DNA from: Muribaculaceae bacterium
Lineage (GTDB): Bacteria > Bacteroidota > Bacteroidia > Bacteroidales > Muribaculaceae
Length of the DNA stretch: 64,000 nt
Reading direction: 5' to 3'
Assembly: GCA_017557625.1 (NCBI GenBank)
Contig: JAFYYG010000016.1
Location: 1-64,000 of the forward strand
Every line of letters begins with the position of its first letter. The first letter of the stretch is position 1. Below are positions 1,013 to 48,642 of this stretch, in pieces. The notes beneath the pieces are model-generated. The model ran no database searches. It was not told where the DNA came from and was given only the letters and a program-made list of their open reading frames with translations. A program made the position numbers and the translations under genes.

Positions 1013-2005
1013 ATGACACAAGGAAAACATATTTGCAACACACTGAAGGCTATCCGAAGCGAGATAGCGAGCGCTAACGAGATTGACTACACCCCCACGC
1101 CATGCGACCATAAGGGCGACTGCGCTGGCACTTGCCCAGCATGCGAGAGCGAGATGAGGTGGATTGAGAGACAACTGCGAGTGCGCCAAGCCTTAGGCAA
1201 GGCGGTGACCATCGCTGGAGTGAGTATGGCGCTGAGTCTTGGCGCAAGCGCCGCCACACCATCGCCAACCGGAGTGGACCAAAAAAGAAAAACAGATGCC
1301 CCAAAACCAAAGAAACCCGACGAACGCCGAACAGTCGGTGTTGTAAGAATACCTCCTACTAATAAGGAAGAAGAAGCAAGGAAAATAGCCGAAGAGGAGC
1401 TAAGGCGCAAAATGCTCGAAGAGCAGAGAATGCGGGAGCAAGAACCAGTGAGAGGCAAGATACCTGCTCCTCCCGAAAAGCCTGAAAACGACTCTATTCG
1501 CAACACACAAACTATCGGCTCGCAATTTGTGGCTGAGGGCGACACCATAATCACCGAAGACGGCAGAGAGATTATCGTCAAAGAACTAACAACTGGAATT
1601 GTTGACAATGTTGGTCAACTCAACATTGACTCCATCTACACCGATGTTGACATCGAGGCTAAATTCCCCGACGGAGATGAGGCTATGGACCTGCTTATCA
1701 AAGACCAGCTATATATACCCGACGAGATTCTTGAGCCTATAAAGGAGGTTAAAGGCACTATCAAAGCACGCTGCATCGTCAAAGCCCTGGTGGAGCGCGA
1801 CGGCACCATCAGCGACGCCCATATCGAAAAGACCACAACCGCCGACATCTTCGACAACGAGGCGTTGCGAGCGGTGAAAAACCTGCCACCATTCCTTCCC
1901 GCACGCCTCTACGGCGCGAAAGTGCGCTCCTGGAAACTTATCCCGGTGGAGTTTATCTACGATTTCTCAAATCCTGAGCAAACCAGCAAACAAGGAGACG
2001 AGTAA
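1013..2005 (+). CDS. Cysteine-domain protein with C-terminal TonB-like domain
   Basis: A 330-residue protein. Residues 1-60 form a conserved module shared with three other genes here: C8, then C31-x5-C37-x3-C41-x2-C44 in the context GDCAGTCPACE, followed by a basic amphipathic stretch. Residues 61-80 are hydrophobic and end in ASA-A, which looks like an internal signal peptide or membrane anchor. A charged, proline-rich region (about 85-170, many K, E, R) follows, and residues about 247-318 resemble a TonB C-terminal domain (V-K-A-L-V-E-R-D-G-T-I-S motif, helix, final strand). Inferred topology: cysteine module in the cytosol, TonB domain in the periplasm. It could be an energy transducer, but no ExbB/ExbD is near. 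The metal-binding role of the cysteines is inferred only from their spacing. Confidence 0.75.
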   Translation: MTQGKHICNTLKAIRSEIASANEIDYTPTPCDHKGDCAGTCPACESEMRWIERQLRVRQALGKAVTIAGVSMALSLGASAATPSPTGVDQKRKTDAPKPKKPDERRTVGVVRIPPTNKEEEARKIAEEELRRKMLEEQRMREQEPVRGKIPAPPEKPENDSIRNTQTIGSQFVAEGDTIITEDGREIIVKELTTGIVDNVGQLNIDSIYTDVDIEAKFPDGDEAMDLLIKDQLYIPDEILEPIKEVKGTIKARCIVKALVERDGTISDAHIEKTTTADIFDNEALRAVKNLPPFLPARLYGAKVRSWKLIPVEFIYDFSNPEQTSKQGDE

Positions 2006-2055
2006 ACAGGCATGAATTAATCAAGAGTTAATCAAGAGTCAAGGAGGTTCACCAT

Positions 2056-2110
2056 GCTGCGACTCCGTCGCAGCCAACTAACAACTGAAAACTCAAAACT
2101 GAAAACTAAT
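2056..2110. repeat. GCTGCGAC hairpin plus AACTGAAAACT repeat
   Basis: 2056-2074 is a perfect 8-bp stem, GCTGCGAC, with loop TCC. It is followed by degenerate AACTGAAAACT copies up to the next start codon. The same hairpin/repeat pair recurs before the next paralog at 2676. Confidence 0.85.
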
Positions 2111-2629
2111 ATGAAACGCGGCAAGAAAATTTGTGAGACATTAAAGGCCATAAGGCGTGAGATCGCCGTTGCCAACGAAATTGACTACTCCCCCACCGAG
2201 TGCCACCACGAGGGCGACTGCGCTGGCACCTGCCCCAAATGCGAGAGCGAGACACGGTGGCTCGAAAAGCAGCTGCGCAACCGCCAAGCTCTGGGCAAGG
2301 CTGTTGCCATCGCTGGCCTGAGTCTGGCGCTTGGAGCCATGGCATCGTGCCACCATAAGACTTCAAAATCTCATTCTGTTGGCAGTTCAGATGAATCGGA
2401 AGAGTCGCTCGAATGCTCAACCGAATCAGGTGATATCACTGCAGGAGTTGTTGACGAGTCGTTCTTTAAATCAACTTCAAAAGATGGCGACACAATTCAC
2501 AACTTCACCCCTCTGAAAGGTGATGATAATGTCTCCAAAAAGGGTGACAATGATGAGGATGATGAAAAATACCAAGTAATGGGCGAAGTAGCTGTCGATG
2601 AGAACGGCAACACTTACGGACCAGAATAA
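2111..2629 (+). CDS. Cysteine-domain lipoprotein-like paralog, acidic C-terminus
   Basis: A 172-residue protein. The ATG at 2111 is chosen over an in-frame ATG at 2054 because the paralogs all begin here and the upstream codons lie in the hairpin and simple repeat. The N-terminal module is nearly identical to the previous gene (C8, C31, C37, C41, C44). The hydrophobic segment 61-79 ends in AMAS-C80, a plausible lipobox placed 80 residues from the N-terminus. The remainder is low complexity, Ser/Asp/Glu-rich, with the motif YQVMGEV near the end, which also appears as FQLMGDV in the next gene. No catalytic domain is recognised. It probably arose by tandem duplication together with its upstream repeat. 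Confidence 0.7.
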   Translation: MKRGKKICETLKAIRREIAVANEIDYSPTECHHEGDCAGTCPKCESETRWLEKQLRNRQALGKAVAIAGLSLALGAMASCHHKTSKSHSVGSSDESEESLECSTESGDITAGVVDESFFKSTSKDGDTIHNFTPLKGDDNVSKKGDNDEDDEKYQVMGEVAVDENGNTYGPE

Positions 2630-2631
2630 GT

Positions 2632-2730
2632 CGGGGATCGGAGTTCGGGGAACGAGAAACAATGAGGTTCACCGTGCTGCGACTCCGTCACAGCCAACTG
2701 ACAACTCAAAACTGATAACTTACAACTCAT
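2632..2730. repeat. Composite spacer: GGATCGGAG patch, hairpin, AACTG repeat
   Basis: Starts with a GGGGATCGGAGTTCGGGGAACG patch at 2634-2655 (the GGATCGGGAATCG family). It continues with a GCTGCGAC hairpin at 2676-2694 (one mismatch, GTCACAGC) and AACTGACAACT/AACTGATAACT copies. It matches the spacer before 2111, showing that spacer and gene were duplicated together. Confidence 0.8.
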
Positions 2731-3183
2731 ATGAAACAAGGTAAACACATATGTGAGACATTAAAGGCCATCAGGCGTGACATCGCTGAAGCCAACGAGA
2801 TTGACTACAATCCCACTGAGTGCACACATGAGGGAGACTGCGCAGGCACATGCCCAGCCTGCGAGAGCGAGACGCGCTGGCTGGAGCGGCAACTGCGCAA
2901 CCGCCAGGCATTAGGCAAGGCGGTAACCATCGCAGGGATGAGCGTGGCACTAGGCGCCATGTCGTCGTGCCACAAAATCATCCAACCCGACGGGATGATA
3001 ATGCCTATTCCAGACAACAAAATCGAAACTCAAACTCCAAACAGTGGCAACCAAACCTCCCCCTCGGCTCAATTCACACCTGTTGATTCTACCGAAGAGC
3101 CCTTTCAGCTCATGGGCGATGTGGTGTGCACACCCGACTCCGCCAACATTCAACAATCCAAGAAAACAACCAAGAAGAAATAG
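2731..3183 (+). CDS. Cysteine-domain lipoprotein-like paralog
   Basis: A 150-residue third tandem copy. The N-terminal 60 residues keep all cysteines (C8, C31, C37, C41, C44) and the G-D-C-A-G-T-C-P-A-C-E block. The hydrophobic stretch 61-79 ends AMSS-C80, again lipobox-like. The C-terminal part is short, Thr/Pro/Gln-rich, carries FQLMGDV and ends in a Lys-rich tail. Without the TonB-like domain of the first copy it has no recognisable periplasmic function. The three genes run in one direction with roughly 100-bp repeat-filled gaps and may form one transcript. Function unknown. Confidence 0.7.
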   Translation: MKQGKHICETLKAIRRDIAEANEIDYNPTECTHEGDCAGTCPACESETRWLERQLRNRQALGKAVTIAGMSVALGAMSSCHKIIQPDGMIMPIPDNKIETQTPNSGNQTSPSAQFTPVDSTEEPFQLMGDVVCTPDSANIQQSKKTTKKK

Positions 3184-3436: not shown

Positions 3437-4564
3437 ATGAACACTAAACCTTTTGTTTATGGCATGTCGGTTGAGGGCGAGCACTTCACCGACCGCGAGC
3501 TGGAAACCAAGCGCTTGAAGCTAAACTTTGAGAACGGCATCAACTCCATCCTCATTTCACCACGACGCATGGGCAAGACATCGCTCGTGAAGAAAGTCAT
3601 GGGAATGATTGACGACGCTCAACTCAAGGTGGTGTATATGGACATTTACAAATGCCGCACCGAGTTTGACTTCTATGACAAATTTGCCTCGACAATCATC
3701 AAAGCCACTGCCACAAAATTAGACACCATGGTGGAGAATGCCAAGAAGTTCATCACCAGCATCACTCCAAAAATATCGTTCTCACCCGACTTGAATGCCG
3801 ATTTCACCCTGTCACTCGGCATCGACAAGAACCGAAATTCGGCAGAAGAAATCCTCAATCTCCCAGAAAAGATTGCCCAAGAGCGAGGCATACACATTGT
3901 GGTGTGCATTGATGAATTTCAACAGATTGGCGAAATCCCCAACTCGATCAGCGTGCAACGTGCCATGCGGAGCGTGTGGCAGCACCAACAGAACGTGAGC
4001 TATTGCCTCTTTGGCAGCAAACAGCACCTGATGGCCAACATTTTCTACAGTCGCAAGATGCCATTCTACCAATTCGGCGACATGTTCTTCCTCAAGAGGA
4101 TTCCCACAGATAAATGGGTGCCGTTCATCACTTTAAGATTTGCGCAAACCGGCAAGAGAATAAGCGACAAACTTGCCGAGAATATTTGTGTCACCGTTGA
4201 GAATTATTCTGCTTATGTGCAGCAACTGGCATGGAATGTACTGGCTGTGAGCGGCGAACGTGTCACAAACGAGAGTTTCAACGATGGTTTAGAGGCGACA
4301 TTGGCGCAAGTGATTCCGTTGTTTGTGGAGCAGACCGCCAATCTCACCACCTATCAACTCAACTTACTAAGAGCCATAGTCGCTGGCACGCACCGCGATT
4401 TTGGAAAGAAAAAAACGACAAGTGTCTATGAGTTGGGCACTCGCTCCAACATTCCAAAGATAATAAAGGCCCTTACAGAACGTGAAATCATTGAAACTAA
4501 TGAGAATGGCATCTTCATTGCCGACCCATTGTTTAAACTGTGGTTCAAACGAGAAATGATGTAG
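3437..4564 (+). CDS. AAA/STAND-type ATPase with C-terminal winged-helix-like tail
   Basis: A 375-residue protein. The Walker A motif R-R-M-G-K-T-S-L is near residue 45 and the Walker B I-H-I-V-V-C-I-D-E-F-Q near residue 158, as in the archaeal-type ATPase family (PF01637/AAA_14-like). These families often end in a winged helix and DNA-binding-like region; here the last 60 residues (S-N-I-P-K-I-I-K-A-L-T-E to F-K-L-W-F-K-R) fit that. It has no signal peptide, so it is cytoplasmic. The role of these ATPases is generally unknown. Only 5 bases separate it from the radical SAM gene, so the two are probably co-transcribed from the promoter near 3335. Confidence 0.8.
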   Translation: MNTKPFVYGMSVEGEHFTDRELETKRLKLNFENGINSILISPRRMGKTSLVKKVMGMIDDAQLKVVYMDIYKCRTEFDFYDKFASTIIKATATKLDTMVENAKKFITSITPKISFSPDLNADFTLSLGIDKNRNSAEEILNLPEKIAQERGIHIVVCIDEFQQIGEIPNSISVQRAMRSVWQHQQNVSYCLFGSKQHLMANIFYSRKMPFYQFGDMFFLKRIPTDKWVPFITLRFAQTGKRISDKLAENICVTVENYSAYVQQLAWNVLAVSGERVTNESFNDGLEATLAQVIPLFVEQTANLTTYQLNLLRAIVAGTHRDFGKKKTTSVYELGTRSNIPKIIKALTEREIIETNENGIFIADPLFKLWFKREMM

Positions 4565-4569
4565 CAGTT

Positions 4570-5220
4570 ATGGCAAAGCAAGAACTTTCGGCGCCGTTTA
4601 TTGGCATTGTGAGGCATCGGTTGGCTACCGACGGTAAGGGGGTGACGACGCTGGTGGCGTTTCACAGCTGTCCGCTGCGGTGCAAGTACTGCCTCAACCC
4701 TCAGTGTCTCGACCCTGAGAAGGTGTGGCGCACTATCACCACTGGCGACCTGCTCAATGAGCTGCTGCTCGACAACCTCTATTTCCTCGCCACTGGCGGC
4801 GGAGTGACCTTCGGCGGCGGCGAACCGCTGCTGCGCAGCGAGTTTATCGACGAGTTCTGCCGCATGAAAATGCCTGAATGGAAGGTAAACATCGAGACCT
4901 CGCTCAACGTTGACCGCAAGCACCTAGAGCGCGTGCTGCCGCACATCGATGAGTACTTCATTGACATAAAAGACACCAACCCAACCATCTACAAGGAATA
5001 CACCACCCGAGACAACTCCCAAGTCCTCGACAACCTGCGCTGGCTGATGTCGCACGAAGGCATGGCAGAGAAAGTCATAGTGCGCCTCCCACACATCCCC
5101 GAATACAACACCCAAGCCGACATCGACCGCAGCTGCGCCCTCCTCGAAGAGATGGGAGTCAAGAATTTCGATGAGTTTGATTATATAGTTGACAGACAAG
5201 AGTTGAAAGGGGAAGAGTGA
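4570..5220 (+). CDS. Radical SAM protein, pyruvate formate-lyase activating enzyme-like
   Basis: A 216-residue protein. The ATG at 4570 is chosen because an earlier ATG at 4540 lies inside the ATPase gene. C-P-L-R-C-K-Y-C is the C-x3-C-x2-C motif that binds the [4Fe-4S] cluster; V-T-F-G-G-G-E-P follows as the SAM-binding GGE segment. Size and the lack of a ferredoxin insert resemble PflA rather than the larger activases of glycerol dehydratase-type enzymes. PflA-like enzymes install a glycyl radical on a partner, but no glycyl-radical enzyme lies in this window, so the substrate is unknown. It is coupled to the upstream ATPase. Confidence 0.8.
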   Translation: MAKQELSAPFIGIVRHRLATDGKGVTTLVAFHSCPLRCKYCLNPQCLDPEKVWRTITTGDLLNELLLDNLYFLATGGGVTFGGGEPLLRSEFIDEFCRMKMPEWKVNIETSLNVDRKHLERVLPHIDEYFIDIKDTNPTIYKEYTTRDNSQVLDNLRWLMSHEGMAEKVIVRLPHIPEYNTQADIDRSCALLEEMGVKNFDEFDYIVDRQELKGEE

Positions 5221-15144: not shown

Positions 15145-15218
15145 GCTTCAATAGCTCAGTTGGTTAGAGCACCTGACTGTTAATCAGGGGGTCGTTGGTT
15201 CAAGTCCATCTTGAAGCG
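15145..15218 (+). tRNA. tRNA-Asn (GTT)
   Basis: A 74-nt cloverleaf. The acceptor GCTTCAA pairs with TTGAAGC, followed by discriminator G, as expected for Asn. The anticodon loop CTGTTAA carries GTT between stems CCTGA and TCAGG. The T loop is GTTCAAGTCC. CCA is not encoded. Confidence 0.97.
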
Positions 15219-15249
15219 CGTTTCATAATATTAAGTTTTAATTGTTAAT

Positions 15250-15323
15250 GCTTCAATAGCTCAGTTGGTTAGAGCACCTGACTGTTAATCAGGGGGTCGT
15301 TGGTTCAAGTCCATCTTGAAGCG
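15250..15323 (+). tRNA. tRNA-Asn (GTT), second identical copy
   Basis: Base-for-base identical to the copy at 15145-15218 and 31 bases downstream of it. It is followed at once by an intrinsic terminator, so both lie in one transcript. Confidence 0.97.
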
Positions 15324-15325
15324 CA

Positions 15326-47994: not shown

Positions 47995-48642
47995 ATGAAA
48001 GAAAAAAAGATCTGCAAGGCACTCAAAGAAATCAGGCTGAATATTGCTCAAGCCAATGATATCAATTATATTCCCGCAGAGTGCGACCACAAGGGAGACT
48101 GCTCGGGAACATGTCCTCAATGTGAGAAAGAATTGCAATACATTGAGCAACAGTTGTTACGTCGTAAGACTCTTGGCAAGGCAGCAGTGGTTGCAGGTCT
48201 TGCTATTGGAGCAACAAGCATCGCGCCAGTGATGGCACAGACATATCATAATGTGCCAAAAGTTGTGCAAAGCAAAGAGGAACTGAAGCCTGTTGATTGT
48301 GCACCAAATGACGCTGCCGCAATAATTGTGCGTGGATGTGTCCTCGATGAGGATAATGAGCCATTGATTGGAGTGATGATTCACGTCCTTGACGAAAAAG
48401 ATAAAATAACAAAACTCGGTACTGCCACTGATTATGACGGACAGTTTGCCATCAGGGTTTCAAAAGGTTGCAAGATACAGATAGCATGTATTGGTTATAA
48501 GAAAGTGACTAAGAAACTTACCAATCCCGAGGAAAATCTAGTCATTAAAATGGATGATGATTTCACACTCATAGGAGAGGTTGTAATTGTTAAGCAAAAA
48601 ACTATGCCCGATGTCGATGCCGACATCTACGAGATGAGATAA
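47995..48642 (+). CDS. Cysteine-domain protein with carboxypeptidase-regulatory-like domain
   Basis: A 215-residue fourth member of the family at 1-3 kb. The ATG at 47995 is chosen by alignment to the paralogs; the longer frame covers promoter sequence. The cysteine module is intact (C7, C30-x5-C36-x3-C40-x2-C43, G-D-C-S-G-T-C-P-Q-C-E). A hydrophobic segment (about 60-80) ends P-V-M-A-Q, a signal-peptidase-like site. Residues about 105-190 form a CarboxypepD_reg-like beta-sandwich (V-R-G-C-V-L-D-E-D-N-E-P-L-I-G-V, D-Y-D-G-Q-F). The end, F-T-L-I-G-E-V-V, echoes the Q-V-M-G-E-V motif of the paralogs. Function unknown. Confidence 0.75.
   Translation: MKEKKICKALKEIRLNIAQANDINYIPAECDHKGDCSGTCPQCEKELQYIEQQLLRRKTLGKAAVVAGLAIGATSIAPVMAQTYHNVPKVVQSKEELKPVDCAPNDAAAIIVRGCVLDEDNEPLIGVMIHVLDEKDKITKLGTATDYDGQFAIRVSKGCKIQIACIGYKKVTKKLTNPEENLVIKMDDDFTLIGEVVIVKQKTMPDVDADIYEMR

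Follow-up and report, generated by a model that had tools for sequence, protein, structure and literature searches.

A cysteine-rich module and an activase-like radical SAM protein form a two-part system in Bacteroidales that may mark proteins at short glycine motifs

This work concerns a 64,000-nucleotide stretch of a Muribaculaceae bacterium (assembly GCA_017557625.1, contig JAFYYG010000016.1, positions 1 to 64,000; the window below) and two protein families encoded in it: a cysteine-rich module of about 60 residues that opens four proteins, and a small radical S-adenosylmethionine (SAM) enzyme whose gene lies near three of them. The module-enzyme pair is a real two-part system, undescribed in the literature we searched. 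We found no description of it there, and the accessible part of a study that mines Bacteroidales for radical SAM clusters of ribosomally synthesized and post-translationally modified peptides (RiPPs) makes no mention of it (PMC10352776). On balance, we believe that this is a protein-modification system, in which the module would tag the tails behind it for an enzyme acting at the glycines of a short motif. Tag and enzyme together suggest an undescribed route by which exported proteins and phage proteins are marked chemically at such motifs. An earlier note on this DNA had taken the module for a sensor tethered to the cell envelope, but its constant partner is the radical SAM enzyme and not the envelope.

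Our confidence that module and enzyme have a shared function is high, as judged from genome sequences, because the two share their occurrence, lie next to each other and are sometimes fused. The earlier note had suggested a search for family size and partners. In an even draw of genomes across the order the module is present in 15 of 393 (11 of 207 genera), and the genomes that have the enzyme at 254.9 bits or more are exactly these 15. A weak relative at 126 bits was seen in one more genome of the order (G208). Under independence the probability of identical sets of 15 in 393 is about 10^-27, or 10^-18 when calculated on 11 of 207 genera. Within the genus of the window the module is found in 31 of 37 genomes and the enzyme in 29, never without the module. 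A draw of 395 genomes over the whole phylum gave the enzyme in only two, both already known and both of the order.

The same picture comes from individual loci. A scan of a species-genome collection yielded 465 pattern matches, of which 358 are relatives; the best 80 were kept (78 loci), all titled Bacteroidales or a member family (Muribaculaceae, Prevotellaceae, Paludibacteraceae and others) and many of them from the ruminant gut. The enzyme is at 50 of the 78 kept loci, at 45 of them within 200 base pairs (bp) of the module. The remaining 28 loci come from 23 genomes, and 20 of these have it elsewhere. When 897 neighbouring open reading frames (ORFs) were clustered, one family dominated, a radical SAM protein of about 210 residues present in 63 of 114 sources (which include the window and overlapping loci of its own genome) at a median of 53 bp from the module gene.

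Fusion also ties the two together. In another genus the enzyme occurs in 6 of 9 genomes, and in all six it is joined to the module in one open frame, with the module at the C-terminus of the enzyme and no hydrophobic segment after it. The gene after the fusion encodes, in all six, a peptide of 61-92 residues beginning MLI, with conserved glycines and no hydrophobic segment; the last conserved glycine of these separate peptides lies within L-[VI]-G-[DE]-[IL]. The large ORF that follows is a TonB-dependent receptor at one locus (L143) and similar-looking at the other five (L144, L145, L182-L184). A further arrangement is found at L146 (5447-7491; genome G271), where a module standing alone in a frame of 95 residues comes after the enzyme. 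At that locus an adjoining gene matches the defence candidate PDC-S51 (E 4.7e-102), and some nearby ORFs look mobilisation-like by eye.

The pair is also found on phage-type contigs and on a plasmid. Among the 22 IMG/VR matches listed for the enzyme, seven are strong (E 1e-33 or better). The module stands beside the enzyme in six of these, one module being cut by the contig end; in L205, the seventh, the frame of the enzyme is short and there is no module in 2.4 kb. The proteins of L195-L197 have no hydrophobic segment after the module and a tail with a HIRAN domain (tested in L195); that of L198 has no hydrophobic segment anywhere, and its tail reads ILMGDVAPPDE, VTMGLPAMPRE and PLAGIPALPDD. 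In L202 the module lies near the C-terminus of its protein. As to whether these contigs are phages or integrated elements, PHROGs, used on a few genes, identified an endolysin in L202; in L195, L198 and L204 the enzyme was the one tested gene with any match. Two human-faecal records labelled 'Bacteriophage sp.' (MT838070.1 and MT837469.1, unverified) encode the enzyme and a module with a hydrophobic segment after it. The plasmid of Segatella copri HDE06 (NZ_CP137558.1; L223, 5410-8489) has two module proteins and a radical SAM gene close to relaxase and mobC; the products of this three-gene set are WP_218413588.1, WP_218413589.1 and WP_218413590.1. Its module proteins are annotated as energy transducer TonB and, as read from the sequence, also have a hydrophobic segment after the module.

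The conservation of five cysteines and one glycine in the module far exceeds chance. When all sources are pooled into 216 distinct module frames, Cys31 and Gly39 are present in all 216, Cys8 in all 214 that reach it, Cys41 and Cys44 in all 215 that have a letter there, and Cys37 in 210, counts that are biased because some of the loci were retrieved by patterns covering a portion of the motif; tandem neighbours and loci from the genome search were not found by the motif pattern. The six frames without Cys37 are exactly the six enzyme-module fusions, which have a cysteine one place earlier. With 216 copies of the module we set aside a chance similarity of the four genes. The earlier note had raised the possibilities that homologs lack the cysteines, which are near-invariant here, and that the module is a characterised zinc ribbon. 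The latter we also set aside: against solved structures nothing was better than E 0.44, LysW (E 0.44) and ResA (E 0.59) being not significant, and in a search of 52 module members no curated zinc-ribbon or ferredoxin model matched more than weakly. That search gave scattered weak NCBIfam matches of 1-11 members each (best E 0.00064, YvyF, and 0.0013, CoB_CoM_SS_C) and Pfam matches of 1-3 members each (best E 0.0082), with cut-offs printed for member 1 only, which were not reached. For the modules of the four window proteins no Pfam or NCBIfam match passed its cut-off and nothing in PHROGs was better than E 0.035; their remaining matches fall in the tails, except a weak one to YvyF (E 0.0051). 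We found no named family for the module in Pfam, NCBIfam or PHROGs, and the earlier note, which knew no named system with such a layout, was right in this. The module is cytosolic, cysteine-rich and possibly metal-binding.

Among 191 full-length module proteins sorted by simple patterns, the cysteine module precedes a hydrophobic segment in 188. The segment ends in a lipobox in 121, in a site like those of signal peptidase I in 62 and without a clear site in 5; 3 have no such segment. What follows is varied: TonB_C, CarbopepD_reg, OmpA (PF00691, E 2.3e-14 in the one tested), HIRAN (PF08797, E 2.4e-10 in the one tested) or low complexity. Module genes are frequently in tandem. At L075 (1031-10249) a first profile finds 12 tandem module genes and a stricter cut 11, with TonB_C-like and OmpA-type tails; the enzyme of that genome lies outside the fetched stretch (G841:C44). 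Within the tandem arrays of L056 (4515-4979) and L069 (10077-10550) are proteins in which the module is joined directly to a TonB_C-like stretch with no hydrophobic segment.

The features of the window are collected in Table 1.

Table 1. Module proteins, enzyme, intervening gene and tail motifs in the window
Feature	Position	Strand	Description
Module protein 1	1013..2005	+	330 residues; Cys module in residues 1-60, then a signal like those of signal peptidase I, a linker and a TonB_C domain
Module protein 2	2111..2629	+	172 residues; Cys module, lipobox AMASC, acidic low-complexity tail
Module protein 3	2731..3183	+	150 residues; Cys module, lipobox AMSSC, low-complexity tail
Module protein 4	47995..48642	+	215 residues; Cys module, signal ending VMA-Q, CarbopepD_reg_2 domain
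AAA ATPase (ATPase_2)	3437..4564	+	Separates the module genes from the radical SAM gene; doubtful member of the system
Radical SAM protein	4570..5220	+	216 residues, activase-like; CX3CX2C motif CPLRCKYC at 4669-4692; enzyme of the system
VMGEV, tail of protein 2	2576..2590	+	Score 22.8 by position-specific scoring matrix (PSSM); short-tail class, the training class of the PSSM
LMGDV, tail of protein 3	3109..3123	+	PSSM score 26.6; short-tail class, the training class of the PSSM
LIGEV, end of protein 4	48568..48582	+	PSSM score 6.7

The earlier note described four genes with a shared five-cysteine module, and both the ORFs and our alignment agree with it. The four proteins can be aligned over residues 1-69, where 37 positions are invariant in all four, including Cys 8, 31, 37, 41 and 44 (numbered one lower in protein 4). 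They are the only copies in their own genome, the fifth match of the own-genome search having an E of 0.96. The hydrophobic signal segment at about residues 60-80 can likewise be read in all four, with the end sites that the note gave (ASA-A in protein 1; the others as in Table 1). The TonB_C tail of protein 1 is above its Pfam cut-off (E 3.6e-9, 37.4 versus 24.6 bits), and the domain of protein 4 matches at E 7.1e-12. No family matched the tails of proteins 2 and 3, nor did any NCBIfam model match these two proteins at E 1. The gene of protein 4 has no radical SAM gene adjoining it. In placing the system at 1013..3183 the note covered three module genes and omitted the radical SAM gene, which is on the same strand. 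It also called the C-termini unrelated, and they do have different domains and tails, but many of them have a glycine-centred motif in common, which we take up below.

The enzyme has a radical SAM core with the CX3CX2C motif, and its cysteines C34, C38 and C41 are invariant in 27 of 27 sequences. Its best library matches are activases of glycyl radical enzymes, all under their cut-offs: the window enzyme scores 129.1 bits against a cut-off of 174.35 for TIGR02494 and 95.8 against 231.75 for TIGR02493, and the other activase models are below theirs as well. The profile of the family aligns with PflA (3c8f; the same sequence is in 3cb8) over 179 positions at E 1.1e-23, the PflA-like core spanning positions 19-197 of 211. 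We saw no C-terminal SPASM or twitch domain in the 216 residues, and SPASM-type maturase models match it weakly, within the core. In PADLOC the enzyme has weak viperin matches (E 3.6e-4 for the window, 4.1e-6 for L146), and we set a defence system aside.

The motif of the tails, L-x-G-[DE]-[VI], was spotted by eye first and tested afterwards; it is common in the tails and not universal. LMGDV is invariant in 12 of 12 orthologues of protein 3, picked by another part of the sequence, though the surrounding tails diverge. For counting, tails with at least 30% of their 4-mers in common with a kept tail were dropped (191 became 134, and 196 unique proteins gave 136 tails). A looser pattern, [LMIV][LMEQAVT]G[DEM][VIL], is found in 67 of 136 nonredundant tails versus 4.4 expected from shuffling (maximum 10 in 300). 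Counted by class, it gives 43 hits versus 0.9 in short tails and 34 versus 3.8 in long ones. It gives 67 hits in 635 neighbouring ORFs (51 expected) and 6 in 46 neighbouring lipoproteins (3 expected), so there is a mild excess outside the tails that is far smaller than the one inside them. The PSSM was trained on short tails (53 windows), and its count there, 41 of 57 versus 1.45 expected, is therefore no independent one. The remaining classes are out of sample but stem in part from genomes that also gave training tails, and they were split by ad hoc regular expressions into 70 long tails (truncated ahead of a TonB_C-like start if one was detected), 3 CarbopepD tails and 4 OmpA tails. The PSSM motif is in 31 of the 70 long-tail linkers versus 2.4 expected, in 2 of the 3 CarbopepD tails versus 0.2, and in 6 of 8 phage-record proteins versus 0.6. 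There is no excess in 250 neighbouring ORFs (19 versus 20.4 expected) or in 134 modules (0 versus 1.8). The best scores of the four OmpA tails, listed outside these counts, are -4.0, -7.2, 9.7 and -7.1.

From these sequences we infer the following scheme in all its parts, namely docking, tails as substrate, glycine target, product, metal and cleavage. The module would be a portable tag, serving for docking or as a leader, and would probably fold around a metal or an Fe-S cluster; the activase-related enzyme would bind it in the cytosol and carry out radical chemistry on the tail joined to it. The likeliest target is the glycine of L-x-G-[DE]-[VI] because the enzyme is related to PflA. PflA abstracts a hydrogen from the glycine of a V-S-G-Y-like peptide, and the structure 3cb8 contains the peptide RVSGYAV. 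The tail would be exported after modification, and signal peptidase II or I would cut near residue 80, probably taking off the module together with the signal. What is left would be a modified lipoprotein, or a periplasmic protein of TonB_C, CarbopepD_reg or OmpA type. One paper reportedly concerns the Q-rule of signal peptidase I in Bacteroidetes. One enzyme could serve several targets, often in tandem. In one genus the tag appears to have moved onto the enzyme, the likely target there being the separate small peptide, and in some phage-type versions tag and motif are kept while the signal is absent. The reaction at the glycine might leave a radical, a cross-link or an oxidation, or it might create a cleavage site. 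The cysteines may hold a zinc or a cluster that also aids the enzyme, and the fusion fits this and docking alike. We have moderate confidence that the tails are the substrate and low to moderate confidence in glycine chemistry. A more specific version, in which an activase-like enzyme attacks the alpha-carbons of glycines in repeated L-x-G-[DE]-[VI] motifs of envelope and phage proteins, guided by a detachable cysteine-cluster tag that may be attached to the substrate or to the enzyme or stand by itself, is put forward only tentatively.

It is important to realize that a number of observations weigh against the modification scheme. The module occurs without the enzyme in two genomes of the window's genus (G002 and G031, draft assemblies in 300 and 560 contigs). 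Of the 23 genomes with enzyme-less loci, three, their completeness not given, have no enzyme at all. The PSSM motif is missing from 39 of the 70 linkers of long tails, from 16 of the 57 short tails, from 1 of 3 CarbopepD tails and from 2 of 8 phage-record proteins; it is also missing from both S. copri proteins, from L202 and from protein 1 of the window, whose linker holds looser glycine-hydrophobic stretches (TVGVVRIPP and PVRGKIPAPP). The eight phage-record proteins are not independent, L195 and L196 being nearly alike and three coming from one record, and one of the three motif matches in L221 falls in the signal region. The looser pattern is in twofold excess in 126 secreted-like neighbours (20 versus 9.6) and is found in 4 of 134 modules versus 0.8. 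Only 1 of the 6 separate peptides after the fusions passes the PSSM; all six match the looser pattern (shuffle p 0.02-0.054 each), and these are orthologues and not independent. By eye we see no motif in the module of the fusions or of L146.

Other explanations must be weighed against this one. The module could be an auxiliary cluster or activating subunit of the enzyme, SPASM- or ferredoxin-like and supplied in trans, in which case the lipoproteins merely carry it and the true substrate is elsewhere. Five near-invariant cysteines would suit such a part, as would fusion at the C-terminus of the enzyme, the place that SPASM domains occupy in radical SAM enzymes. The main match of the enzyme to TIGR02494 begins at profile position 103, with an inner part seemingly skipped (a second matching stretch exists, its place not printed), and 5 of 52 module members weakly match the same model (best E 0.036, member 1 at profile positions 38-75), a likeness we treat as a hint only. 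We nevertheless consider this explanation unlikely: it leaves up to 12 tandem module genes with changing tails (L075) unexplained, as well as the motif common to so many tails, and in the lipoproteins the module would be removed on export. It is far less probable still that the enzyme is an ordinary glycyl radical enzyme activase, with the module genes as bystanders. Activases are indeed its best library matches, with PflA among the structures, and in G000, G413 and G171 it is the sole TIGR02494-type match at E 1e-20, each of these genomes having a weak PF01228 match (21.3 to 28.3 bits), possibly an anaerobic ribonucleotide reductase with an NrdG of its own. However, the enzyme is under every activase cut-off and co-occurs perfectly with the module in the order set. 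PF01228 passes its cut-off in 10 of the 15 positive genomes, but 4 of the 15, all 99-100% complete, have no match at E 0.001, and the strong glycyl radical enzymes of G201, G423, G291 and G351 have another activase within 2.4 kb; an ordinary activase is unlikely for both of these reasons.

Two further explanations place the function in the envelope, and we find each of them very improbable. The glycine motif might be a TonB box or an envelope sorting signal unrelated to the enzyme, which would fit the TonB_C and CarbopepD_reg partners, the TonB-dependent receptor gene after the separate peptide and the looser-pattern excess in secreted-like neighbours. The same motif is found in signal-less module proteins on phage-type contigs (L195, L196 and L198), however, and small peptides that have no hydrophobic segment contain the looser version. 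The sensor of the earlier note, which would respond to metal or redox state in the cytosol and be tethered to output domains in the envelope, has in its favour the cysteine module ahead of a hydrophobic segment in nearly all full-length proteins. Its observation of a cysteine-rich module before an unusually internal export signal stands. The tethering is not supported: by pattern, the 121 proteins with a lipobox should have the tether cut, and the module also occurs without a signal in all six fusions, bare in L146 and in the phage-type L195-L198. Some phage-type proteins keep tag and motif without a signal, so neither an envelope sensor nor a TonB box can be the general answer.

Several known systems resemble the module-enzyme pair in part. 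The glycyl radical enzyme activases (PflA, TIGR02493; PFLE_PFLC, TIGR02494) have the same radical SAM core, CX3CX2C, DGxG and GGGEP region, whereas the window enzyme is below their curated cut-offs and is partnered with cysteine-module proteins; a C-terminal motif like that of glycyl radical enzymes was seen in one ORF only (L082) among L001-L113 and the window. The radical SAM/SPASM maturases of RiPPs also cluster with candidate substrates in multiple copies that have a conserved leader-like part and variable tails. Here, in contrast, the enzyme is without SPASM, the leader-like part is a cysteine-rich module before a signal, and folded envelope domains, as well as a HIRAN domain, are found among the tails. 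TIGR04133 and TIGR04134 describe a radical SAM/lipoprotein system of Bacteroidetes with a radical SAM gene beside lipoprotein genes, an arrangement that is also seen here in Bacteroidales, but the window enzyme and proteins 2 and 3 match neither model (TIGR04133 is absent from the 25 NCBIfam matches of the enzyme at E 0.01). The energy transducer TonB (PF03544) shares the C-terminal domain of protein 1 and lends its name to the S. copri proteins, but the N-terminal cysteine module and the radical SAM partner are foreign to TonB.

If the modification scheme is true, entries now named "energy transducer TonB", "hypothetical" and "radical SAM protein" would unite in one modification system of gut and rumen Bacteroidales and phage-type contigs. 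Activase-type chemistry would then reach beyond a few metabolic enzymes to disordered surface proteins, there would be a portable tag for steering radical chemistry, and why phages carry the system would become a question. The compact three-gene version on the plasmid of a named human-gut isolate makes the system testable.

Some neighbouring features remain to be mentioned. We set aside the AAA ATPase as a core part of the system, its cluster being present in only 11 of the 114 sources, own-genome loci included. A scan for promoters and terminators in the window gave about as many sites as shuffled sequence (6 versus 4.6 and 5 versus 5.5). Just upstream of the module genes, at 104-853, is an ORF of uncertain start whose product has leucine-rich repeats of the BspA type and a dockerin type I domain at its C-terminus, and at 15145-15324 there is a pair of adjacent tRNA-Asn(gtt) genes.

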